From a candidate division TA06 bacterium DG_78 (GTDB taxonomy: Bacteria; Hydrothermota; Tepidihabitantia; SM23-42), in NCBI GenBank assembly GCA_001303225.1, contig LJNI01000014.1, positions 1-20,753 of the forward strand: a stretch of 20,753 bases of DNA, in the 5' to 3' direction. How positions within the stretch are numbered: the first letter of the stretch is position 1; every line of letters begins with the position of its first letter. A program made the position numbers and the translations under genes. The notes below the pieces were generated by a model. That model saw only the letters and a program-made list of their open reading frames with translations. It ran no database searches and was not told the DNA's origin. This document shows positions 4,370 to 20,753 of this stretch, one piece after another.

Positions 4370-5033
4370 GAATATTCCGTTCTGGATATTTTTGCTCGTG
4401 GTTGTTCCATTACTCATCATTACGTTTACCTATGGTTCATTTAATTACAGTTTCAGGAGGTCACTAAAAATCGAACCTATACCACAGAGAGGATATACTT
4501 TACGCATAAGAGATTTAGACCTTGAAATAAAAAAAGTGGAGAGTATTGGATTTGAACAAATCGACGCATTTTATTTGAAGATGATACCACATTCAGTCAC
4601 CTATGTCTTAAAACACAGAGAAGCCTCCGTATATCTATGCCTCTATCATTTTGGAACTAAAAAAACATGTGATTTTTTCACAAGATATGAAAATGATTAC
4701 ACGCTCACAACATGCGACAATATTGATGGTGGAATGACACCGAGACCAGGAAAGAGTTTATTACAGATAGCAACTAATGTATCTTACGAGCAGCTGTTCG
4801 AAATTCATAAGAAAACGCACAATTTTTTAATAGATAAAGGTCTAAAACTAGATGAACTACCACAAGAGGAATTCCGACACTATTTTTTAAAAAACATCTA
4901 TGACTATGCTCAGTATGTGCGTACATATTCGTTTGGTCCTATTCGCTTGATATTCTGGACAGTGAGCAAAAGGGGTCGTGTGCACTGTAAAGAAATAGAG
5001 ACACACTATAATACTGGTTTAATTAAATTGTAG
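4359..5033 (+). CDS. Membrane-anchored protein of unknown function
   Basis: 224 residues; I do not recognise the family. The N-terminus is one strong hydrophobic helix (about residues 6-26: FWIFLLVVVPLLIITF), followed by a soluble domain of about 195 residues with mixed alpha/beta character, two cysteines close together (YLCLYHF and KTCDFF) and no obvious catalytic motif. The only usable in-frame starts are GTG at 4359, which sits in the 3' arm of the structured repeat, and TTG at 4392 inside the helix; the frame is open upstream only to a TAA at 4281 and has no ATG there. No ribosome binding site fits either start. The native start may have been replaced when the repeat arrived. The gene is probably co-transcribed with the methyltransferase and ends six bases from the convergent gene at 5040. 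Confidence 0.65.
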   Translation: MLIWNIPFWIFLLVVVPLLIITFTYGSFNYSFRRSLKIEPIPQRGYTLRIRDLDLEIKKVESIGFEQIDAFYLKMIPHSVTYVLKHREASVYLCLYHFGTKKTCDFFTRYENDYTLTTCDNIDGGMTPRPGKSLLQIATNVSYEQLFEIHKKTHNFLIDKGLKLDELPQEEFRHYFLKNIYDYAQYVRTYSFGPIRLIFWTVSKRGRVHCKEIETHYNTGLIKL

Positions 5034-5039
5034 CGAATA

Positions 5040-5561
5040 TCATGGTATCACAAATTCCCAAGCACAGTAATAGTATTTAGGATGGGGGTCTGGCGGGCAC
5101 GCAATGCATCTTGTTTGAATACGAGGGTCGATCGTTTTTGCAAAATACTCATATTCAACAAAACCGACAGGCTTACATGGAAAATCAGGTAGGTTCTTTC
5201 GTTTCCTCGCTGCTTGAACACGACAATCTACCATTCTGAAGATACATCTCTGTTCCGAAACCTCGGTAACTTCTTGTTTGTTGATATACGCATAGAGGCG
5301 GAAGTTTAATGCCTGAATTAAAGCAGGAATGCCGCCGCCGGATTTCATATTCAATCGTTTCATGATTCTCTGTGCTTCTATTTGGGTAAATTCCTTCCAG
5401 GCTTTACCATCAAGTTCAATCGCGGCGTTTATTCCGAACTTCTTCTCAACTGCTTGGAACCATAAGCCATCATGACAAAGCCAGTTCTTCGCTGCATCAG
5501 TCAATAATTTTACGAGTTCTTCTTTGTTCAAATTTTGAAGGGTTACAATTTTATGTTGCAT
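5040..5561 (-). CDS. Cysteine-rich protein of the DUF6125 / ATC-hydrolase-like type
   Basis: 173 residues. The pattern NWLCHDGLWFQAVEKKFG followed by AAIELD, then RIMKRL, FRLYAYIN, MVDCRVQAARKRK and RCIACPPDP fits a family of small cytosolic proteins annotated as DUF6125 and related to the L-2-amino-thiazoline-4-carboxylic acid hydrolase family; this assignment is from memory of the family pattern. Cysteines cluster in C-H-D-G, R-C-I, D-C-R, P-C-K, R-C-I-A-C and Y-C-A, suggesting a metal or redox site. The ATG shares one base with the stop of the upstream radical SAM gene (TAATG), behind a good GAGGTGAT ribosome binding site, so translation is probably coupled. Last gene of the minus-strand operon that starts at 8378. 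Confidence 0.72.
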   Translation of the reverse strand: MQHKIVTLQNLNKEELVKLLTDAAKNWLCHDGLWFQAVEKKFGINAAIELDGKAWKEFTQIEAQRIMKRLNMKSGGGIPALIQALNFRLYAYINKQEVTEVSEQRCIFRMVDCRVQAARKRKNLPDFPCKPVGFVEYEYFAKTIDPRIQTRCIACPPDPHPKYYYCAWEFVIP

Positions 5562-6487
5562 TACATCACCTCGTAATATTTTTGTGCTTTGTGTTGAGTC
5601 AATTTTATTTTTTGCTTAGTTTTTAATCTCTCGAGATACTTCAACAATTCATTTTTATGTAAACCGGTAACATGAGAGATATCATCGAGAGTAACTGGCC
5701 TTCTTTTTATTAAATTTAAAATATCATTTTCTTTAGTATGGGAATACGATATTTGTTTTTTCCCTTTGAATCCTGCTATGATTTCGCACGTATCACCAAA
5801 AGATTGCTTGATTTTTTGTAACTGTTTATATGACAGAGGAGCGGCATATTTTTCGCTCGGTGGTCTCACAACGGTATTGAGATGAATTTTATCAGGAGCA
5901 ATTTTCTCAGTAGCTTCCTTGATTTTTCTAATTTCTGATTCAGAATCATTAATACCTTTCACAAGCATAATCTCAAGCCAGATTTTCCCTTGATACCGTC
6001 TTCGAAAATCGACCATGCCTTGAATGATTGTACCTATAGATAATAAAGGATGGTTTCTATTTATTTTGATAAATATTTTTTCGCTTACAGCGCATAGGGT
6101 TGGAAGAATAACATCTGCAGACAGTAGGTCACTCTGTACATCTGAGCGAAAGAGTAGAGAGCCATTCGTGAGAACCGCCAATGGTATGGCTGTGATCCCT
6201 TTCAATTGTTTTATCATGTAGCCTATCTTTGAATGCAGCGTAGGCTCACCCGAACCGCTGAATGTCAGGTAATCGGTGCGACCACCCGTGTTAAGTGCAA
6301 TTTTAACTTCTTTGAGTATTTTTTCTGTCGGCGCGTATTCTTTCCGCTCGAGTGTTTTCTTTGTCGTTTTACCAAGCTGACAATAAATACAGTCATAACT
6401 GCAATATTTGAAAGGAACGAGGTCAACACCGAGTGAAAACCCAAGTCTCCTCGATGGAACTGGTCCGTAAACATATTTACTGCCCAT
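5561..6487 (-). CDS. Radical SAM protein, COG0731-like, with C-terminal winged helix
   Basis: 308 residues. The N-terminus YGPVPSRRLGFSLGVDLVP leads into the 4Fe-4S motif C29-x3-C33-x2-C36 (CSYDCIYC). The SAM-binding features LTFSGSGEPTLH and LTNGSL follow. This layout is that of the group often labelled wyosine-synthetase-like (COG0731), but bacterial members are not shown to modify tRNA, and the true substrate is unknown. The last 60 residues (from about 250) form a winged-helix DNA-binding-like domain (NDILNLIKRRPVTLDDISHV...), common in this subgroup. It overlaps the DUF89 stop upstream by 11 bases and the DUF6125-like gene downstream by one, so it belongs to the same operon. No clear ribosome binding site precedes the ATG. 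An anaerobic lifestyle fits. Confidence 0.88.
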   Translation of the reverse strand: MGSKYVYGPVPSRRLGFSLGVDLVPFKYCSYDCIYCQLGKTTKKTLERKEYAPTEKILKEVKIALNTGGRTDYLTFSGSGEPTLHSKIGYMIKQLKGITAIPLAVLTNGSLLFRSDVQSDLLSADVILPTLCAVSEKIFIKINRNHPLLSIGTIIQGMVDFRRRYQGKIWLEIMLVKGINDSESEIRKIKEATEKIAPDKIHLNTVVRPPSEKYAAPLSYKQLQKIKQSFGDTCEIIAGFKGKKQISYSHTKENDILNLIKRRPVTLDDISHVTGLHKNELLKYLERLKTKQKIKLTQHKAQKYYEVM

Positions 6488-7328
6488 ATTTATTTGTAAT
6501 AAGAATAGTACTTTTCCTTTTTAATCTGAGATTACGTGCTACAACTGGACATTTCAGCTGCAAGAGAAAGAAGATTGGTCTATTCGTGTCTGAAAGTGTT
6601 TCATAATTACCTTGTCCTTTACTAATGACCATGTCAGCAGACCAGAAGATTTTTTTGAACTGGGTCGTGCATAGTTTTAATATTGTCCCTGGTGCATCAC
6701 ACCCTGAAGAAATGACTTCAGCGATGTTATCTATGCCGGCGTGCCGGGCGTCGTCGATGGTTGCATCGTTTATTATTGGTTTATTTCTGACTGCGTAGAT
6801 TACTGGTTTGTTTAGTTGCTCAATCAATAATTTATCGAGTACTGTTTCTCCGGCATTATCTGCTATATAGAGAATGTGTTTTGCCTTTTTGAGCGTTTTC
6901 TTGAACTCATTATACTCACTAATTTCAAAATCTTGGTGAAAGAAGGTTCTGATTATTTTATTGAAATCAAAATTATGATCGGCACCCAAGTCAATAGCAT
7001 TTGCTAAAGCCGCAAAGGTGAGTGCAGTATAGAGGGAATCTTTTGATGAAATGATCTTGTCTTGCAATTGAGGGTACAGAGCTAAGAGATTTTCTGTACA
7101 CCTTTCTTTTATTTCTCTATATGGATCACTATTTTTACTGATTCGATATATTGTTTTATAGATTACCATACCAATCTCAGGAGGAGATGTGTGTAGTGAT
7201 ATTTTTAAGAGGTGTAATGCAACAGCATTTATGACCCTTAAAATATCTTTATCTTTAAGATGTGCGATTCTTGCCGCTCGAATGGCTTGTTTAAAAAAAC
7301 AGGGAATGCAACCTATGTATGTTTTCGT
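6477..7328 (-). CDS. DUF89 (ARMT1-like) metal-dependent phosphatase-like protein, apparent ACG start
   Basis: The frame is open 53 codons upstream of the first ATG (7169), and those codons encode the conserved DUF89 N-terminus: KTYIGCIPCFFKQAIRAAR with the family's C-x2-C pair, through TSPPEIG just before the ATG. Nothing like ATG, GTG or TTG lies between the upstream TAA and the CxxC; the codon exactly where the family starts is ACG (7326-7328), ten bases after AAAGGA. Starting there gives 283 residues, normal for prokaryotic DUF89. Later motifs are intact: IADNAGETVLDK (catalytic Asp/Asn), SSGCDAPGT and ADMVISKGQGNYETL. Some DUF89 proteins remove phosphate from damaged metabolites such as 4'-phosphopantetheine or sugar phosphates. 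The gene overlaps the Nudix-PanD stop by 16 bases and the radical SAM start by 11. The CoA link to its neighbour is inference. Confidence 0.85.
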   Translation of the reverse strand, partial: TKTYIGCIPCFFKQAIRAARIAHLKDKDILRVINAVALHLLKISLHTSPPEIGMVIYKTIYRISKNSDPYREIKERCTENLLALYPQLQDKIISSKDSLYTALTFAALANAIDLGADHNFDFNKIIRTFFHQDFEISEYNEFKKTLKKAKHILYIADNAGETVLDKLLIEQLNKPVIYAVRNKPIINDATIDDARHAGIDNIAEVISSGCDAPGTILKLCTTQFKKIFWSADMVISKGQGNYETLSDTNRPIFFLLQLKCPVVARNLRLKRKSTILITNKYGQ

Positions 7329-8176
7329 TTTATTTTATTCCTTTCATCGAGAATGACGACATGTGGCCTAAATTTTTTTGCTTCTTCAGTATTGAGGATC
7401 GTGTACGAGAGTATACACAATTTGTCACCTATTTTCCCCTTTTGAGAAGCAGGACCATAGAGAACAAATTTGCCTGAACCAGCACGCTCTTCAATTGTGT
7501 ATGTTTCTAACCGTTCACCATTATCATAATTTAAGACCTGTACCTTCTCGCCAGGAATTAAATGTGCTGCCTTCATAACAGCACCATCGATACCCATACT
7601 TCCTCTATAGAATAACTGGGTGTGAGTGACTGTCGCCTTAGTGATTTTTGACTTCAATACTTCGATTAACCCCCTTTTCTGTTGTTTTTTCATTAATCCA
7701 TCTATAATTATCATCCTATGACTTCGAAAGGGTATCGTTGGTAATTTATTGATAGGGAAGAACTTAACAGCCTGCGTATCCGAACCATGTTTGAGCTTAC
7801 CACCGATAGATTCAATGCTATAAGCAATTAATAATACTGTGCCATAGGTGACAGTTGATTCAGTATACACACCAATTAAATCCCTGATAACTCCCTTTAT
7901 GTGCGTTTCTTCCTGTAATTCTCTCAAAACTGCTTCTGAAGGTAATTCATCTTCTTCAATAAAGCCTGAAGGAAGTGCCCACGTCCCTTTACGTGGAGAA
8001 ACATTCCTCTTGATTAATAAAATCTTATCATTATTGCACACGAAGGCTACGACACTCGATAAGGGATTAGCATAGTGAACCCAACCACATTTTCGACAGG
8101 AGAGTCGAGTCCTACTATCTTGTTTTTTCATATATAAATTACTTTTACAAAATGGGCAAAACTTATAACTTTTCAT
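7313..8176 (-). CDS. panD: Zinc-ribbon Nudix hydrolase fused to aspartate 1-decarboxylase (PanD)
   Basis: 287 residues in one frame. Residues 7-30: zinc ribbon, C7-x2-C10 and C27-x2-C30, as in NudC-like Nudix enzymes. Residues 71-93: Nudix box G71...E77...R85-E86-L-x-E89-E90, with H92 where the consensus has Gly. Residues 169-287: complete PanD. Counting from residue 169 as PanD residue 1, the E. coli catalytic positions align without a gap: Lys9 is K177, Tyr22 is Y190, the self-cleavage pair Gly24-Ser25 is G192-S193, Arg54 is R222, Thr57 is T225, Tyr58 is Y226. PanD makes beta-alanine from aspartate for pantothenate and CoA after forming a pyruvoyl group at that Ser. Cleavage here would leave the Nudix domain joined to the short beta chain. 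The ribosome binding site is GAGGAAAG before the ATG; the gene overlaps DUF1858 by 14 bases. The Nudix substrate is unknown. Confidence 0.92.
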   Translation of the reverse strand: MKSYKFCPFCKSNLYMKKQDSRTRLSCRKCGWVHYANPLSSVVAFVCNNDKILLIKRNVSPRKGTWALPSGFIEEDELPSEAVLRELQEETHIKGVIRDLIGVYTESTVTYGTVLLIAYSIESIGGKLKHGSDTQAVKFFPINKLPTIPFRSHRMIIIDGLMKKQQKRGLIEVLKSKITKATVTHTQLFYRGSMGIDGAVMKAAHLIPGEKVQVLNYDNGERLETYTIEERAGSGKFVLYGPASQKGKIGDKLCILSYTILNTEEAKKFRPHVVILDERNKIKRKHT

Positions 8177-8378
8177 TCACTTTCCTCAACTCTTCATTTA
8201 ATTTGTCAATCAAAGTGTCAACATTGACATGATGTTTTTCGGCAAGATCAGCAATAGTTCCCCAGTATGATTGTCCGCAGACCAAACAGGGCAGTCCAAG
8301 TTCGATAAATACCTTGGTGAGCCCAGGGTATTCAGTTAAAACGGCCTCAACATGCATATCTTTAGATATTTTCTCCAT
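8163..8378 (-). CDS. DUF1858 domain protein, leaderless
   Basis: About 71 residues, a full-length single DUF1858 domain: ISKDMHVEAVLTEYPGL, then VFIELGLPCLVCGQ with the C-x2-C turn, then the helix DTLIDKLNEEL. This small fold occurs alone or beside redox and metal proteins; its function is unproven. The ATG at 8378 is chosen over an in-frame TTG at 8384, because 8384 is the last base of the -10 hexamer and cannot be in the message. Only five bases separate the -10 box from the ATG, so the mRNA should begin at or next to the A of the start codon. First gene of the five-gene minus-strand operon; its stop lies inside the Nudix-PanD gene. Confidence 0.82.
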   Translation of the reverse strand: MEKISKDMHVEAVLTEYPGLTKVFIELGLPCLVCGQSYWGTIADLAEKHHVNVDTLIDKLNEELRKVNEKL

Positions 8379-14564: not shown

Positions 14565-15782
14565 TTAACTTTCTAACATTTCGCTCACCAACGTCATGTA
14601 ATCTAACAAGGAGCGTGTGATGAGAAATTTCTCTTTCACAACCTCTTTTCCTTTCTGTCCAAATTTCTGTGCGAGTTTAGGGGTTTTCATAATATCGATA
14701 ATTCTTTCGGCGAATCCAGCTATATCCTGAGAATCGACAAGATAACCATTTTCAGCATCTTTTATCTGTAGTGGTATTCCGCCGACATTCGAAGCAACAA
14801 CAGGTTTTTCCTTCCACAGCGCCTCTGTTATTGACAGTCCGAATCCTTCTCTGATCGATTTTTGAAGGATGACTGCTGCTTTCCTCTGCAATGCATTGAC
14901 GAGGATGTTGCTTTCTGAAGTAATCAGTATGACATCGCCATTCTTTGTATAATTGTTCGTTTTCTTTTTTACTTGTTCGTATACCTTAACACTCTCAGGA
15001 TCATCAGTAGCCATACTACCACAGAGTACGAGTCGACAATCTATTTTTTCCTTAACGAGTTTAAAAATCTCGACGATACCAACAGGATCTTTCCATTTAT
15101 CAAATCGCGAAATTTGACATAAGATTGGTTTGTCTGTAGGAATGCCAAATTTTTTGAGATATTTATCTATTGTTTTTTGTGAGATTTCAATGTTTTTAGG
15201 AGATAGTGGATCTATAGACGGATGAATAACTCTTTGCTCTACAGGTAAGTCATTTCTTTTATACTTATTATGTGAAAAAATGATACTATCATAACGCAGT
15301 ATATAGTGTTTGAGAAATGTCCAGAGCTCTTGATGAGGATTTGATACATCTATATGAACCCTCCATATCCATGGCTGTCTTTTCTTATAAAACTTAATCA
15401 TGGAGAGTGGTTGTGGGTCGTGTACAATAACACAATTGTGATTTGAGAGGTGTGTGTACAATGAGAAATCAACGTTGGTCTGGACATAAATCTTTTTTTT
15501 CATCTCAGTAAGATTCAATGAATCACCCTGTAGTGCGTTGTGAAATTTTTTTGTTATATTGAAAAAATCCTGTGAACCACGCAATTGCCTCCATCCTGTT
15601 TCCACTCCTATTTCGTTCATGAGCGGAACAAGGGCACTCAGTATTTCAGCAACACCACCACCGTAGTATGTTGAGTTAATATGAACAACAGTTTTCCCGT
15701 AGAGATGTCGGGCAGCTTTATATATTTTAAACATTATATCTTCTTCAACTATTTTTGCGTATTCTTCAATTCGATAGGCCAT
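14565..15782 (-). CDS. treT: Trehalose glycosyltransferring synthase TreT (GT4), copy 2
   Basis: 405 residues. Motifs as in copy 1: VVHINSTYYGGGVAEIL, KKFHNALQGD, VIVHDPQP, RVHIDVSNP, SIDPLSPKN, QISRFDKWKDPVG, GSMATDDPE and REGFGLSITEALW. NDP-glucose plus glucose gives trehalose plus NDP, reversible in characterised thermophile enzymes. It lies directly downstream of a trehalose-type ABC importer, as in Thermococcus, where TreT can turn imported trehalose into NDP-glucose and glucose. The start is supported by GGAG (complement of 15792-15795) nine bases before the ATG. The 107-base gap after malG carries a good promoter, so it can be expressed apart from the transporter. Confidence 0.94.
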   Translation of the reverse strand: MAYRIEEYAKIVEEDIMFKIYKAARHLYGKTVVHINSTYYGGGVAEILSALVPLMNEIGVETGWRQLRGSQDFFNITKKFHNALQGDSLNLTEMKKKIYVQTNVDFSLYTHLSNHNCVIVHDPQPLSMIKFYKKRQPWIWRVHIDVSNPHQELWTFLKHYILRYDSIIFSHNKYKRNDLPVEQRVIHPSIDPLSPKNIEISQKTIDKYLKKFGIPTDKPILCQISRFDKWKDPVGIVEIFKLVKEKIDCRLVLCGSMATDDPESVKVYEQVKKKTNNYTKNGDVILITSESNILVNALQRKAAVILQKSIREGFGLSITEALWKEKPVVASNVGGIPLQIKDAENGYLVDSQDIAGFAERIIDIMKTPKLAQKFGQKGKEVVKEKFLITRSLLDYMTLVSEMLES

Positions 15783-15846
15783 ACATTCTGTCTCCTTTCA
15801 TACCTTCACTACTTTTTTATATTGCATCCATGTTAAAGTTTTAATT

Positions 15847-15874
15847 ATTATACAAAATTTTTCATCATTTTCAA
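15847..15874 (-). promoter_or_regulatory. Internal promoter for treT copy 2
   Basis: Minus strand: TTGAAA (complement of 15869-15874), 16-base spacer, TATAAT (complement of 15847-15852). Predicted start near 15840, giving a leader of about 58 bases. Confidence 0.78.
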
Positions 15875-15889
15875 GGATCTTTATATGTG

Positions 15890-16717
15890 TCATTGCTTTA
15901 CTGCTCCTCGCGTAAGCCCCTGAATAATATGTTTTTGGAATACGAGAGCGATTGCGATGACAGGTATACAAGAAATAACCGCCGCTGCCATTATGTAACC
16001 CCAAGGTAATTCACCATGCAGACCTTGGAATAGAGCAATGCCTACTGGGACAGTTCTCGTTCTGTAATCTATAGTTAACATGAGTGCAAAGAGGAATTCA
16101 TTAAAAGCAAACATGAGCAGGAGCAGTATTGTTGATAAAAAACCAGGTAGGGTGATGGGGAAAATAATTTTTGTAAGTGTTTGCAGTTTACTTGCACCAT
16201 CAATTTGTGCTGCTTTATCTAGTTCATACGGAATCTGTGAAAAATAACTCATCATTATCCATAGTGCGAGAGGGAGGCTCCATGAAACATAGGGTAGGAT
16301 TAATGCCTGATATGTATTTATCCATCCTAATGCAGCCATAAACTTGTAGAGATATCCAACGATGCTAATCTGTGGAAACATTGACATACTAAGTACAGCA
16401 AACACGAGCAGAATTTTCCCGGGGAATGAAATTCTAGAAACAGCGTAAGCTGCAAGTGCACCAATAAATCCACTCAATAACGCAGCAGCTCCTGCAATGA
16501 TGATGCTGTTTCTTAAGTAGTCTAAAAAATGAAGGTTGTCTAAACGCAAAATATCAATGTAATTTTTTGTGGTTAACTGCGATCCTATATTCACAATGAA
16601 ATCAGCTCGTTCGTTAAATGAAATGATGAGCATCCAGATAAACGGCACTAAACAGAAGACGAGGATAAACAATACACCCAGTGCGAATAATATTTTCTTT
16701 CCAGTATCTTCTTTCAT
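15890..16717 (-). CDS. malG: Sugar ABC transporter permease, MalG type
   Basis: 275 residues with six predicted membrane helices; the first starts near residue 9 (KILFALGVLFILVFCLVPFI). The EAA loop that docks the ATPase is ELDKAAQIDGASKLQTLTKI followed by IFPITLPG, close to the consensus EAA-x3-G-x9-I-x-LP. AFNEFLFALML and the C-terminal QKHIIQGLTRGAVK are typical of CUT1 MalG proteins. It pairs with the MalF-type gene upstream, overlapping it as ATGA. The likely substrate is trehalose or maltose, judged from the binding protein and the trehalose genes around it. No MalK-type ATPase is present in the window. Confidence 0.94.
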   Translation of the reverse strand: MKEDTGKKILFALGVLFILVFCLVPFIWMLIISFNERADFIVNIGSQLTTKNYIDILRLDNLHFLDYLRNSIIIAGAAALLSGFIGALAAYAVSRISFPGKILLVFAVLSMSMFPQISIVGYLYKFMAALGWINTYQALILPYVSWSLPLALWIMMSYFSQIPYELDKAAQIDGASKLQTLTKIIFPITLPGFLSTILLLLMFAFNEFLFALMLTIDYRTRTVPVGIALFQGLHGELPWGYIMAAAVISCIPVIAIALVFQKHIIQGLTRGAVKQ

Positions 16718-17583
16718 AAAATCGAAGTTCTGATTCTGCCAACCTTTATATATGTTAATGCTATAATAAATGAGATAAGGAAAAGGATAACAGAGACTGT
16801 AGAACCATATCCGAAATCACCTAATAAGAAAAATTTGTAGCCGTAGAGTGATAGCGACGTTGTGACGCCGCCTGGACCTCCTTCAGTGATAACGTAAATA
16901 AGATCGAAGACTCTGATTGCATCAATGGTTCTAAACAAGAGGGCAATGATGACAATTGGTTTTATCAATGGAAGTGTAATTTTAAAAAATCTTTGTACGA
17001 AATTTGAACCATCGACTTGTGCTTGATCATAAATATCATTGGGAACTGTTTGTAGTCCAGCGAGGAGAATAATCGCAACGAATGGTGTCGTTCTCCAGAC
17101 ATCGGCTAAAACGAGGGCAGAGAAAGCACCAACTGGACTTCCAAGCCAGTTAATGGATTGGATACCGAACATTTTTAAAAAAAGATTTGCGAGTCCATAG
17201 TCATAACGATAGATAAGTTGCCATATACGTGCTCCGACAATGCTCGGGATTGCCCAGGGAATAAGGCTGATCCCTCGTAAGATTCCTCGGAATCGGAATG
17301 TTTCGTTCAAAACGAGAGCGAAGATCATACCAAAGAACATTTCTAGGGATACTGAAATAAGTGGGAAGAGGAGTGTAAAATATGTTGATTGCCAAAAATG
17401 TCGATCACTTAGCAATCTCACATAATTCTCTAAACCAATAAATTTTTTCGAAATGAATGCAACATCTTGCCATAGACTAGTCCAAAAAGTCCCACAGATA
17501 GGTAATAGAATGAAGAAAGATATGAAAATAACTAGAGGAGCTACGAACAGGAGAGCTTCTTTGAATTCTCTATTTACTTTCAT
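16714..17583 (-). CDS. malF: Sugar ABC transporter permease, MalF type
   Basis: 289 residues, six predicted helices, without the large periplasmic loop of enterobacterial MalF. The EAA loop is IYDQAQVDGSNFVQRFFKI followed by TLPLIKP. IPSIVGARIWQLIY and ITEGGPGGVTTSLSLYGYK are typical of CUT1 permeases. It forms the inner-membrane channel with the MalG-type gene, which overlaps it by four bases. The ATG at 17583 has no ribosome binding site, and a 125-base gap separates it from the binding-protein gene. Confidence 0.94.
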   Translation of the reverse strand: MKVNREFKEALLFVAPLVIFISFFILLPICGTFWTSLWQDVAFISKKFIGLENYVRLLSDRHFWQSTYFTLLFPLISVSLEMFFGMIFALVLNETFRFRGILRGISLIPWAIPSIVGARIWQLIYRYDYGLANLFLKMFGIQSINWLGSPVGAFSALVLADVWRTTPFVAIILLAGLQTVPNDIYDQAQVDGSNFVQRFFKITLPLIKPIVIIALLFRTIDAIRVFDLIYVITEGGPGGVTTSLSLYGYKFFLLGDFGYGSTVSVILFLISFIIALTYIKVGRIRTSIL

Positions 17584-17674
17584 AATTTAGTATTACAATT
17601 ATAGAACGTCATATCAGAAATAGCATGTTCAATAAAAACTGGGAGTGCAACCAGAATAGAGTTTTGATTTATTC

Positions 17675-17696
17675 AAAAAATCGTGGTTGATTTTTT
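17675..17696 (-). other. AT-rich hairpin between the binding-protein and permease genes
   Basis: An eight-base inverted repeat (AAAAAATC with GATTTTTT, six-base loop) lies 13 bases past the binding-protein stop, in the 125-base gap. On the minus strand it ends in a T tract, so it could act as a weak partial terminator that makes the binding protein more abundant than the permeases, a common pattern. The stem has only two G-C pairs, so support is low. Nothing else recognisable was seen in the gap. Confidence 0.3.
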
Positions 17697-17708
17697 ATAT
17701 AGAGGTTA

Positions 17709-18998
17709 TTATTGATTCGAGACATGGTATATATCTACAATCCGTTCTATTTCTTTTTGAGACTGAAATAATGCTTTGTGAGCTGATAATTTGCCAGATA
17801 GACATGCATTGATATGTCTCTGGAGAATTTCTGATAGTTGAGTATAATAGGGAAGATTGGGTCGTGCTGCAGTATATTCGAATGCCTTTTTTAACACAGC
17901 AATATGTGGTACATTCTCTTTAATTTCTGAATCGTCATAAATATCACTTCTACCTGGATTCCAGCCCAAATTCAGTGTTAGTTCTTTTTGTGTTTCATAA
18001 GCGATGATGAATTTTACGAGTTCCCATGCATTATCCTTGTTATCTGAATACTTCGATATTCCAATATGCCATCCACCGAGTGCTGCTGCGTTTTTTCCAT
18101 CTGCGGTTTTTGGTAACAACGTGATGGCTATTTTCCCTTGTACTGGAGAATCTTCTCTCTCATGAAGGCTCCAGGCATAGGGCCAATTTCTCTCAAATAA
18201 TGCATTGCCGGCATCAAAAAATAATCGTACTTCTTCTTCCTTCATTTCAGTAAAGGTATTAGGTGGTGAAATCTTATAGCTATGTATCATATTTTTCATC
18301 AATTCAAGCGCCTCAATATTTTCTTTACAGTTGATGACGATATTTCCATTTTTATCGACAATACCACCACGATGAGAAACAGCAAATTCAAGGAAGGTGC
18401 AAATTAATCCTTCATACTGCGCACCCTGCCAAACAAAACCACGGAATTGTGGATTTTCTTTTTTTTCATGCTTTTGAATAATCTGTGCGCAATGAATAAG
18501 GTCGTCCCACGTTTCAGGAATAACACAACCGTATTTTTCTAGAAGATCTTTTCTGTAATAAAGCAAACCACAATCAATATATACAGGCAGTGCGACTAAT
18601 TTTTTATTATACATGTCTACCTGTTCAATAATACTCTGAAAGAATACATCAACATTTAATGTATCCTTATTAATATAATGAGCAAGTGGCTGCAGCCAAT
18701 CAGAAGCAGCAAATTGACCAACCCAGATGACATCCATCAAAAATACGTCGGGATCTTTCTTCTTTGCCTTTAACGGGATGACTAATCCCTGTCTTCTCTG
18801 GTCTGTGTCTGTTGGTTGCCTTAAAATTTTCACACTTATATTGCTTTTTTCCTTAAATTTTTTTATAAGTATTTCCCAGTACTCGACTTCACTAGGAGCA
18901 CCACCTATTGCGAATGTAAGAGTCGGTGGTTCTTGAGAACAATTTGAAAACAGAATGCATAATATGTATAGTATAATTGAAAGTTTATAGTACTTCAT
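17709..18998 (-). CDS. malE: Trehalose/maltose-type ABC solute-binding lipoprotein
   Basis: 429 residues. A short charged N-terminus, one hydrophobic helix and Cys20 in LFSNCSQ form a lipoprotein signal; Asn at -1 is not canonical. The mature protein follows the pattern of the Thermococcus trehalose/maltose-binding protein: TFAIGGAPSEVEYWEILI, RQPTDTDQRRQGLV, DPDVFLMDVIWVGQFAAS, LPVYIDCGLLYYRKDLLEK, GFVWQGAQYEGL and AALGGWHIGISKYSDN. It captures trehalose or maltose outside the membrane and delivers it to the MalF/MalG pair. The ATG overlaps the OtsAB stop as ATGA, so it is co-translated with the trehalose synthase/phosphatase. Confidence 0.93.
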   Translation of the reverse strand: MKYYKLSIILYILCILFSNCSQEPPTLTFAIGGAPSEVEYWEILIKKFKEKSNISVKILRQPTDTDQRRQGLVIPLKAKKKDPDVFLMDVIWVGQFAASDWLQPLAHYINKDTLNVDVFFQSIIEQVDMYNKKLVALPVYIDCGLLYYRKDLLEKYGCVIPETWDDLIHCAQIIQKHEKKENPQFRGFVWQGAQYEGLICTFLEFAVSHRGGIVDKNGNIVINCKENIEALELMKNMIHSYKISPPNTFTEMKEEEVRLFFDAGNALFERNWPYAWSLHEREDSPVQGKIAITLLPKTADGKNAAALGGWHIGISKYSDNKDNAWELVKFIIAYETQKELTLNLGWNPGRSDIYDDSEIKENVPHIAVLKKAFEYTAARPNLPYYTQLSEILQRHINACLSGKLSAHKALFQSQKEIERIVDIYHVSNQ

Positions 18999-20753
18999 AA
19001 ATTTTGAAGCTCTTGCAACAGTTGTCTTACCTCATAGGGGTATTCGATGTTGTGTTGAGCCTTTGTTATTCCCATACCTACTTTAATCGAATATGATTGT
19101 GTAGAAAGCACCTCAAAAGTATCCTCGTCTGTCCAATCATCTCCAATTGCCATAATAAAATCCCACTTTTCTCTTAAAATCCACCTTAAAGCAGCGTGAC
19201 CCTTACTGATACCAACGTTTTTAACCTCGATTACTTTGCTTCCTTCCAAAATTCCAAGATTAAGGTTATTTGTTAAATAAGAAAGTGCTTCTTTCAGCTC
19301 TCGAGCTCTAATCGATGCCAGTTTAGGATCTGCTTTCCGATAGTGCCACACAAGTGAAAAATCTTTTTCTTCAATAAAAGCACCCGGAGTTCTGTCAACA
19401 TATAGTTCAAGTATTGGTCTAATTTGAACTTTCCATTCACTCATTAGAGGTTCTGTGAGTTCCCACTGTTTCTTATTTTCTTTTATCCAAACACCGTGCT
19501 CAGCAATCAATCCTAAATTTATATTTGCGAACCATTGGTCGAGTATTTGTCTGTTTCTTCCACTTATAATAACAACTTCATTATTTTGTTTTTGAGTAAG
19601 CGTTTTTAAAATTGTGTAAAGTTGTTTGTCGGGTTTTGCTTTTTCCGGTCGATCGATAAAAGAAATGAGTGTGCCATCATAGTCGAGTAGCAGCAGTCTT
19701 CGTTTACTCTTAGCATAATTTTCAATTAAATCCCTTCGAGTTTCTGGTGTTAATCTCTTAGAGATGGTATCTTGTTGGACTTTCTTTATATTATATAAGC
19801 TGTCCATAAAATCAATAGCCCACCGTTCGACATTATAACGTTTAAGCCGTCTTTGCATCGTCTCATTTCTTATAATCTGTTCTTCTTCCGATAACTCTAA
19901 AGCATTTTTTATTGCATCAGCAATCTCATCTTTATTATTAGGATTTACAATGATAGCTTCACCAAGTTCTTTTGATGCACCAGCCATTTCACTCAAGATG
20001 AGCACACCTTTGGAATCAATTTTTGCTGCAAGAAATTCTTTTGCGATAAGATTCATACCATCTCGAAGAGGCGTGATGAGCGCAACGTCTGCAACACTGT
20101 ATAGAGGAACGAGATTTTGAAACGGAAGGTATCGATAGAGATACCAAATAGGCATCCATTCGAGTGTACCAAATTTCCCATTGATTTTGCTAATCAATTC
20201 ATCAACGCGTTTTTTTAACAATGCATACTGATCTACTCCTGTGCGCGAAGGTACTGCTACGAGAATGAGTGTGACCTTCTCTCGATATTTAGGGTTTTTT
20301 TCAAGAAAAGAGTCAAATGCTTCAAGTCTCTCTGGTATTCCCTTTGTGTAGTCCAATCGATCAACCGATAAAATTACTTTCCGTTCACCTACTTTTTTGC
20401 GTATTTTCTTTATTTCTTTCTGAACTTCAATATTGTTGACTGCATGTACAAAGCGTTCATAGTCAATACCCATAGGAAAAGCATCGACTCTTACTATCCG
20501 ATTATCAGCGGTGATCCGTCCAGGAGTGTGTTCATAACCGAGAAGACGGCGTACGCTTTCAATAAAATGATGGACATAATCATAGGTATGAAAACCGATG
20601 AGGTCTGCTCCTAGTATTCCTTCTACAATTTCGTCACGGCACGGTAGAAGCCGGAACACCTCAGAAGAGGGGAATGGAATATGGAGGAAAAATCCAATTG
20701 TTGCATCTGGTAATTTCTTTCGTAAAAACTTGGGGAGGAGCATTAATTGATAA
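18995..20753 (-). CDS. otsAB: Trehalose-6-phosphate synthase/phosphatase fusion (OtsA-OtsB), N-terminus outside window
   Basis: The frame runs out of the window; the ATG at 20743 is internal, since the in-frame residues YQL before it extend the OtsA segment YQLMLLPKFLRKKLPDA. About 585 residues are seen. GT20 synthase part: GFFLHIPFPSSE, ADLIGFHTYDYV, VDRLDYTKGI, and RDGMNLIAKEF (UDP-glucose binding). After about residue 345 of the visible part comes a HAD-type phosphatase: DYDGTL (nucleophile Asp codon at 19682-19684), VIISGRNR, GLIAEHG, and IGDDWTDEDTF (metal-binding acidic motif). The protein makes trehalose-6-phosphate from UDP-glucose and glucose-6-phosphate, then removes the phosphate. 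Fusions of this kind occur in several bacteria as well as in fungi and plants. About 130-150 N-terminal residues are missing. It is followed by the sugar importer with ATGA overlap. Confidence 0.95.
   Translation of the reverse strand, partial: YQLMLLPKFLRKKLPDATIGFFLHIPFPSSEVFRLLPCRDEIVEGILGADLIGFHTYDYVHHFIESVRRLLGYEHTPGRITADNRIVRVDAFPMGIDYERFVHAVNNIEVQKEIKKIRKKVGERKVILSVDRLDYTKGIPERLEAFDSFLEKNPKYREKVTLILVAVPSRTGVDQYALLKKRVDELISKINGKFGTLEWMPIWYLYRYLPFQNLVPLYSVADVALITPLRDGMNLIAKEFLAAKIDSKGVLILSEMAGASKELGEAIIVNPNNKDEIADAIKNALELSEEEQIIRNETMQRRLKRYNVERWAIDFMDSLYNIKKVQQDTISKRLTPETRRDLIENYAKSKRRLLLLDYDGTLISFIDRPEKAKPDKQLYTILKTLTQKQNNEVVIISGRNRQILDQWFANINLGLIAEHGVWIKENKKQWELTEPLMSEWKVQIRPILELYVDRTPGAFIEEKDFSLVWHYRKADPKLASIRARELKEALSYLTNNLNLGILEGSKVIEVKNVGISKGHAALRWILREKWDFIMAIGDDWTDEDTFEVLSTQSYSIKVGMGITKAQHNIEYPYEVRQLLQELQNL

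Follow-up and report, generated by a model that had tools for sequence, protein, structure and literature searches.

The minus strand of the window, as the whole 20,753-nucleotide stretch of contig LJNI01000014.1 is called here (assembly GCA_001303225.1, candidate division TA06 bacterium DG_78), encodes at 7313-8176 a single protein in which a zinc-ribbon Nudix hydrolase is joined to a full-length aspartate decarboxylase, PanD. PanD, a small enzyme that cleaves itself, belongs to an essential vitamin pathway, to which it supplies the beta-alanine of vitamin B5, and its control differs between bacteria. The Nudix-PanD fusion is real, and its architecture, single copy, conservation and neighbourhood, as well as the occurrence of unfused Nudix proteins in similar neighbourhoods, were computed directly from the genomes. 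With moderate confidence, we read the protein as a vertically inherited two-domain enzyme, whose self-cleaving PanD part would make beta-alanine and whose Nudix domain would keep an older pyrophosphohydrolase role. In 13 fused loci the 3' end of the fusion gene is overlapped by a phosphatase gene that probably starts with ACG.

The fusion gene and its distribution

The frame runs without interruption for 287 codons to a TAG stop at 7313-7315 and encodes a zinc ribbon and a NUDIX domain followed by PanD. The CxxC...CxxC zinc ribbon (residues 5-35; 8072-8164) matched PF14803 (Zn_ribbon_Nudix) at 29.8 bits against a cut-off of 25.6. The NUDIX domain (residues 40-146; 7739-8059) matched PF00293 at 64.2 bits against 21.1 and was matched by Foldseek to 3cng and NudC; the core Nudix box, GX5EX7REUXEE, is found at residues 71-90 (7907-7966). 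The PanD domain (residues 169-287; 7316-7672) was recognized by Pfam (PF02261, Asp_decarbox; residues 171-282, 124.9 bits against a cut-off of 25) and by the NCBIfam panD equivalog TIGR00223 (111.4 against 106 bits; residues 172-285 on model positions 4-117). In Foldseek, it superposed on 1pqe, an E. coli PanD mutant, with a root-mean-square deviation of 0.8 Å over 116 columns and a target TM score of 0.97. The closest PDB entries by sequence were the zinc-ribbon Nudix protein 3cng for the N-terminal half (residues 5-112) and PanD chains, 3oug first, for the C-terminal part (residues 170-274).

An earlier sequence-only reading of this stretch had proposed one polypeptide with a complete PanD, and this was confirmed by the single 287-residue frame with both domains above curated cut-offs. 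Its numbering also holds in the alignment: relative to E. coli PanD (a reference sequence identical to 1ppy_A), an offset of +168 places K177, Y190, G192, S193, R222, T225 and Y226 at K9, Y22, G24, S25, R54, T57 and Y58. An assembly join, a missed stop or another frame artefact was considered and ruled out, because the same frame recurs in 26 genomes, six of which are listed as one contig (G075, G076, G085-G088).

In an AlphaFold2 model built from a 60-row alignment, with a mean predicted local distance difference test (pLDDT) score of 95.5, the C-terminal Nudix helix (residues 151-167; 7676-7726) passes directly into the first PanD strand (residues 170-182), which it meets at residue 170. The distance from an SHR-like motif in this helix to an LKSK-like motif in PanD was found to be 17-20 residues in the 25 of 26 fused proteins that matched the pattern. 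Based on this junction and this spacing, the two domains appear to be joined with almost no linker.

Going by its near relatives (CP070705, CP070795 and CP070802), the window belongs to the phylum candidate division WOR-3. Of 147 WOR-3 genomes searched, 128 contained a PanD match (PF02261). Within the window's order the fusion was found in 26 of 27 genomes, namely in all 23 of family f1 and in three of the four of family f2 (the window's genome counted); no PanD match was found in the remaining genome of f2 (G068, 84% complete). The open frames around PanD in this order span 284-306 amino acids, and all 26 contain a Nudix domain. The whole fusion proteins of the relatives are 52-66% identical to that of the window, and comparison with 24 relatives gave identities of 47-61% (mean 55) for the Nudix part and 59-75% (mean 68) for PanD. 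The four zinc-ribbon cysteines are present in 25 of the 26 fused proteins; the other one (L050) is masked with N in this N-terminal stretch and was omitted from some counts. None of the 26 genomes has a PanD match other than the fused one. For the window's own genome (79.5% complete), the sequence-only reading had suggested looking for a second panD, and no second PF02261 match was found there.

Outside the order, a further 102 WOR-3 genomes gave a PanD match; 100 of them could be judged, and none of these contained the fusion. The locus was read in sequence in 64 of the 100, and 36 were taken as unfused because their open frames of at most 145 amino acids are too short for a fusion; the other two genomes, G025 and G047, have the gene truncated at a contig end. 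Longer frames around PanD (144-253 amino acids, in family f10 and elsewhere) were considered as other WOR-3 PanD fusions and rejected, being stop-to-stop frames with no Nudix match. None of 341 matching plasmid records and none of 41 matching phage records covered 80% of the query, and seven pattern matches on viral contigs included no relative. A scan of genome contigs with exact-peptide seeds found three WOR-3 fusions and one Nudix-only locus; since such seeds limit the reach of the scan, other phyla may also hold the fusion. Among the papers listed by searches of the open-licence literature for the fusion, none describes a Nudix-PanD protein, in line with the earlier remark that this architecture is not known to have been described. 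What is new is the joined architecture, together with a fixed Asn72Tyr substitution and the overlapping ACG; both domains belong to known families.

The PanD active site and the role of the Nudix domain

The fused protein resembles other PanD proteins (TIGR00223, PF02261; E. coli 1ppy, F. tularensis 3oug) in its fold, full length and Gly-Ser site, and in Lys9, Arg54, Thr57 and Tyr58, but differs from them in its N-terminal Nudix hydrolase, in a Tyr for Asn72 and in a Pro for Ala74. K9, Y22, G24, S25, R54, T57 and Y58, the activation and substrate residues, are invariant in all 26 fused proteins, in each of which the predicted self-cleavage site Gly192-Ser193 (7598-7603) is aligned with Gly24-Ser25 of E. 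coli. By analogy with E. coli PanD, the precursor would fold and its PanD part would self-cleave at this site, giving an alpha chain of 95 residues that bears the pyruvoyl group and a chain of 192 residues in which the predicted beta chain stays attached to the Nudix domain. A PanD tetramer would then have four Nudix domains. Among the 27 genomes of the order, 26 have a PanB match and 24 a PanC match, although a few matches are partial or split. As the fused PanD is the only one found and PanB and PanC almost always accompany it, the fusion very probably supplies the beta-alanine of the cell.

Several observations weigh against a two-domain enzyme with both parts at work. Tyr240 and Pro242 (7451-7459) replace Asn72 and Ala74 in all 26 fused proteins, and these residues might change PanD maturation or activity. 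In 15 of the 26, including the window, which has HI in place of GU, the strict Nudix box, GX5EX7REUXEEXGU, lacks its final two residues; the strict box is complete in the other 11. In addition, the window's own genome has a PanC match and no PanB was found in it at its 79.5% completeness, and the predicted TM score (pTM) of the whole model was only 0.75.

Asn72, which stands beside the pyruvoyl serine, is frequent though not universal in PanD. Further changes specific to the fused proteins are Ala76 to Ser (25 of 26), Phe55 to Leu (25 of 26) and Ile86 to Cys (26 of 26). None of the five substitutions was found in 64 unfused WOR-3 PanD proteins, in which position 72 is N in 46, K in 10, L in three, R in two, Q in two and D in one, and position 74 is G in 37, A in 26 and R in one. 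Substitutions fixed or nearly fixed in one group and absent from the other could mean that the PanD part has changed function or become inactive, and now acts as the tetrameric scaffold of the Nudix domain. This is very improbable, however, given that a sole PanD occurs with PanB and PanC, that the seven residues listed above are invariant, that Leu55 and Pro74 are also found in the alignment of F. tularensis PanD 3oug, and that position 72 varies among the unfused proteins. Moreover, in E. coli the Asn72 side chain is described as bonding Ser25 in the zymogen, and the Asn72Ala mutant is reported to retain activation (PMC3975893).

A working but altered PanD active site is therefore the likeliest reading of these sequences. 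The earlier claim of an active decarboxylase stands in part: the self-cleavage residues are kept, PanB and PanC co-occur, and the E. coli Asn72Ala precedent favours it, but Asn72Tyr and Ala74Pro are fixed. Likewise, the seven residues that it had listed are conserved as stated, but the Tyr at residue 240 and the Pro at residue 242 had been missed.

Among the unfused proteins, the PanD of L088 (G097; 4414-4791, minus strand) was found to have Cys, Gln and Thr at the positions of Gly24, Arg54 and Tyr22, and is perhaps inactive or misaligned.

The Nudix half is similar to zinc-ribbon Nudix hydrolases (PF14803 with PF00293; N. europaea 3cng) in its zinc ribbon, core Nudix box and fold, but differs from them in having PanD at its C-terminus. 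With the NADH/NAD (nicotinamide adenine dinucleotide) pyrophosphatase NudC it shares the zinc ribbon and Nudix fold. Unlike NudC, none of the 26 fused proteins contains SQPWPFP, which we take to be the NudC motif, and no NCBIfam Nudix equivalog reached its cut-off (NudC, 36.9 against 158 bits). A loose form of what we take to be the coenzyme A (CoA)-type motif of NUDT7, located upstream of the Nudix box, was also found in none of the 26. Coupling of beta-alanine synthesis to hydrolysis of CoA or NAD(H), as suggested in the sequence-only reading, is thus not supported, since these assumed motifs are lacking and relatives of the Nudix domain occur unfused, without PanD, in a similar neighbourhood. 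The neighbourhood of these relatives points instead to an older, separate role, and the Nudix domain would retain its own pyrophosphohydrolase job on some nucleoside-diphosphate compound as the PanD part makes the beta-alanine. The fusion would then give fixed stoichiometry and tethering rather than a proven shared pathway.

The Nudix domain might otherwise act as a sensor in cis that binds CoA, dephospho-CoA, adenosine diphosphate ribose or an NAD-like nucleotide and controls PanD maturation or activity. The rigid helix-to-strand junction predicted by the model would suit such a role, and the Foldseek matches include NrtR, presumably a regulator with a Nudix domain. A published precedent is the control of E. 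coli PanD by PanZ-CoA (PMC4410942), PanZ being reported as limited to gamma-proteobacteria (PMC3496974). If the sensor reading were right, the fusion would be like the PanD-PanZ-CoA complex in attaching a nucleotide-binding partner to PanD, although PanZ is a separate GNAT protein and the Nudix domain is covalently joined. However, all 26 fused proteins retain the core Nudix box, as expected for catalysis, its relatives are found unfused in similar settings, and a known PanD, PanDBS, is described as having no need for PanZ. Control in cis is accordingly considered unlikely.

Gene neighbourhood and origin of the fusion

The gene ahead of the fusion (8163-8378, minus strand) encodes a 71-residue DUF1858/prismane-associated redox disulfide domain protein and overlaps the fusion start by 14 nucleotides; it is smaller than the size limit of the open reading frame list. 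A PF08984 match adjoins or lies upstream of the fusion in 22 of the 26 loci (E-values up to 0.001, not all above the family cut-off). Downstream, a 308-residue radical SAM protein (5561-6487, minus strand), for which all NCBIfam matches were below cut-off, is present in all 26 loci, and a 173-residue DUF6125 protein (5040-5561, minus strand) in 24. A DUF89 gene is found in 13 of the 26. Overall, the surroundings of the fusion are stable.

The eight nearest Nudix relatives outside the order are free proteins with 49-58% identity. A similar neighbourhood surrounds the unfused gene in several genomes. In G132, G133 and G134 of family f32 the gene order is DUF1858, unfused Nudix, radical SAM; unfused Nudix followed by radical SAM is found in G135 and G012, and DUF1858 followed by unfused Nudix in G144. 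In G142 and G144 a DUF89 gene precedes the radical SAM gene. In G012, G133-G135 and G144 the PanD gene has a different location, and G132 (61% complete) gave no PanD match. Other WOR-3 Nudix relatives have dissimilar neighbourhoods.

Phylogenetic analysis placed all fused PanD in one clade, with a support of 100 in the Shimodaira-Hasegawa-like approximate likelihood ratio test (SH-aLRT). The fused Nudix domains (25 rows) also form one group (74/90), beside the unfused Nudix proteins of families f32, f33, f15 and f37. The fused PanD clade was placed beside Bacteroides PanD with weak support (82), and an alternative clade with 33 WOR-3 PanD proteins of the same class was not rejected (approximately unbiased test, p 0.42).

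Because other WOR-3 families have an unfused Nudix gene in comparable surroundings, we infer that the Nudix gene most likely occupied this neighbourhood first and was joined by PanD later. The ancestral WOR-3 operon type would have been DUF1858, zinc-ribbon Nudix hydrolase, in some cases DUF89, and radical SAM; panD would have arrived immediately downstream of the Nudix gene, and their frames would have merged into one.

In many same-class loci (e.g., L081-L087 and L012-L014), unfused WOR-3 panD was seen to close a ribosomal operon, directly behind two genes that are presumably rpoA and rplQ. Farther along the window (14565-20752, minus strand) are genes that look by eye like those of an ATP-binding cassette (ABC) sugar transporter, beside apparent trehalose synthase and trehalose-6-phosphate synthase/phosphatase genes.

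The overlapping DUF89 gene and its ACG codon

The DUF89/ARMT1-like damage-control phosphatase gene of the window, read from ACG, extends over 6477-7328 on the minus strand, its 5' part lying in the -1 frame within the last codons of the fusion. Its product matched PF01937 at 205.9 bits against a cut-off of 25, the NCBIfam equivalogs remaining below theirs. The nearest solved chains, 2g8l and 2ffj, are both 'hypothetical' proteins, which we take to be archaeal.

The gene is present in 13 fused loci (the window, L036-L040, L042-L046, L056 and L057). In each of them ACG stands where the start codon is expected (7326-7328 in the window), six codons ahead of the first Cys of the DUF89 Cys-x-x-Cys, with a Shine-Dalgarno-like AGGAA (7338-7342) nine nucleotides before it. 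No ATG, GTG or TTG was found ahead of the conserved DUF89 N-terminus in any of them. In four, a TTG or GTG lies 29 nucleotides beyond the PanD stop, and a start there would lose the conserved Cys-x-x-Cys. At the same position in 63 unfused WOR-3 DUF89 loci, which make up most, though not all, unfused matches (there are 72 unfused genomes with a match), the codon is always a usual start, namely ATG in 56, GTG in five and TTG in two.

AGGAA is also found in L041 and, of the 12 fused loci that lack DUF89, in L051 alone, at the corresponding codon. In a lenient test, Shine-Dalgarno-like motifs preceded 7 of 26 radical SAM, 23 of 24 DUF6125, 2 of 18 DUF1858 and 12 of 17 methyltransferase-like (cluster c9) genes. 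As a locus without DUF89 has the motif and related genes show similar ones, AGGAA is not decisive. Across 190 codon columns of the 13 genes, synonymous difference had a mean rate of 0.55, with 2 columns at zero; it was zero at PanD residues 278, 279, 283, 284, 285 and 286 (the last from only 28 pairs). Residues 278-279 and 282-283 precede the ACG. The overlap alone would be expected to constrain residues 284-286, and the PanD Arg at residue 284 alone also restrains the CG of the ACG; CGA makes up 10% of the Arg codons in these genes, yet it is used at residue 284 in all 13. Because the sequences are related, the 13 loci do not count as independent events.

In L041 (G076), a seemingly decayed DUF89 start with AGGAA and ACG lies just after the fusion stop, and this genome has no PF01937 match.

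The simplest history would begin with an A-ATG-A overlap, where a lone T-to-C substitution would have abolished two signals at the same time, the PanD stop (CGA in place of TGA) and the DUF89 start (ACG in place of ATG). On the sequence evidence, DUF89 is probably initiated at this ACG. In one E. coli reporter library, ACG is reported within a group of codons at 0.1-1.5% of the ATG level (PMC6925171), so the DUF89 start may be weak, or coupling may assist it. Alternatively, DUF89 could be reached by a -1 frameshift out of the fusion frame, which would yield a Nudix-PanD-DUF89 protein. It is ranked below ACG initiation, since the only plausible slip site noticed (xTA AAA CGA) is not intact in L036 and L037, whereas ACG and AGGAA hold in 13 of 13. 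Among the open-licence papers listed by literature searches, none was seen to describe a conserved bacterial ACG start.

A function for this arrangement in CoA metabolism was also considered. In a CoA-turnover module, the Nudix domain would cleave CoA or dephospho-CoA to 4'-phosphopantetheine, DUF89 would dephosphorylate the product and PanD would feed the pathway. The sole ties of the Nudix domain to CoA would be its DUF89 neighbour, which follows the fusion in half of the loci and is also found near unfused Nudix in families f30 and f33, and an analogy to human PANK4, whose DUF89 domain is reported to dephosphorylate 4'-phosphopantetheine (PMC9352595). PANK4, a pantothenate-kinase-like domain with DUF89, is similar in tying a CoA-pathway domain to a DUF89 phosphatase, as the PanD and DUF89 genes do by overlapping, but here the reading frames are separate and the partner domain is different. 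Moreover, the CoA-type motif, in its loose form, is missing from every fused protein, DUF89 is absent from 14 of the 27 genomes of the order, and its nearest solved relatives are the 'hypothetical' chains named above. Such a module is improbable. It is similarly doubtful, though somewhat less so, that in the 13 WOR-3 genomes the Nudix-PanD frame and DUF89 form a translationally coupled unit with a conserved ACG start (or the frameshift), in which the single T-to-C change was kept, perhaps to set the production of a CoA-pathway phosphatase at a low rate. The ACG start alone is surer than this whole picture, which, with its CoA role, is much less sure.

With no usual start in 13 of 13 fused loci and in 0 of 63 unfused ones, the overlap provides a clean, testable case of a conserved bacterial ACG start (or of a frameshift). 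The fixed Asn72Tyr bears on the mode of pyruvoyl group formation. Finally, every PanD found in this lineage carries a rigidly attached Nudix domain, which makes the lineage a natural experiment on whether a nucleotide can control PanD maturation or activity in cis.

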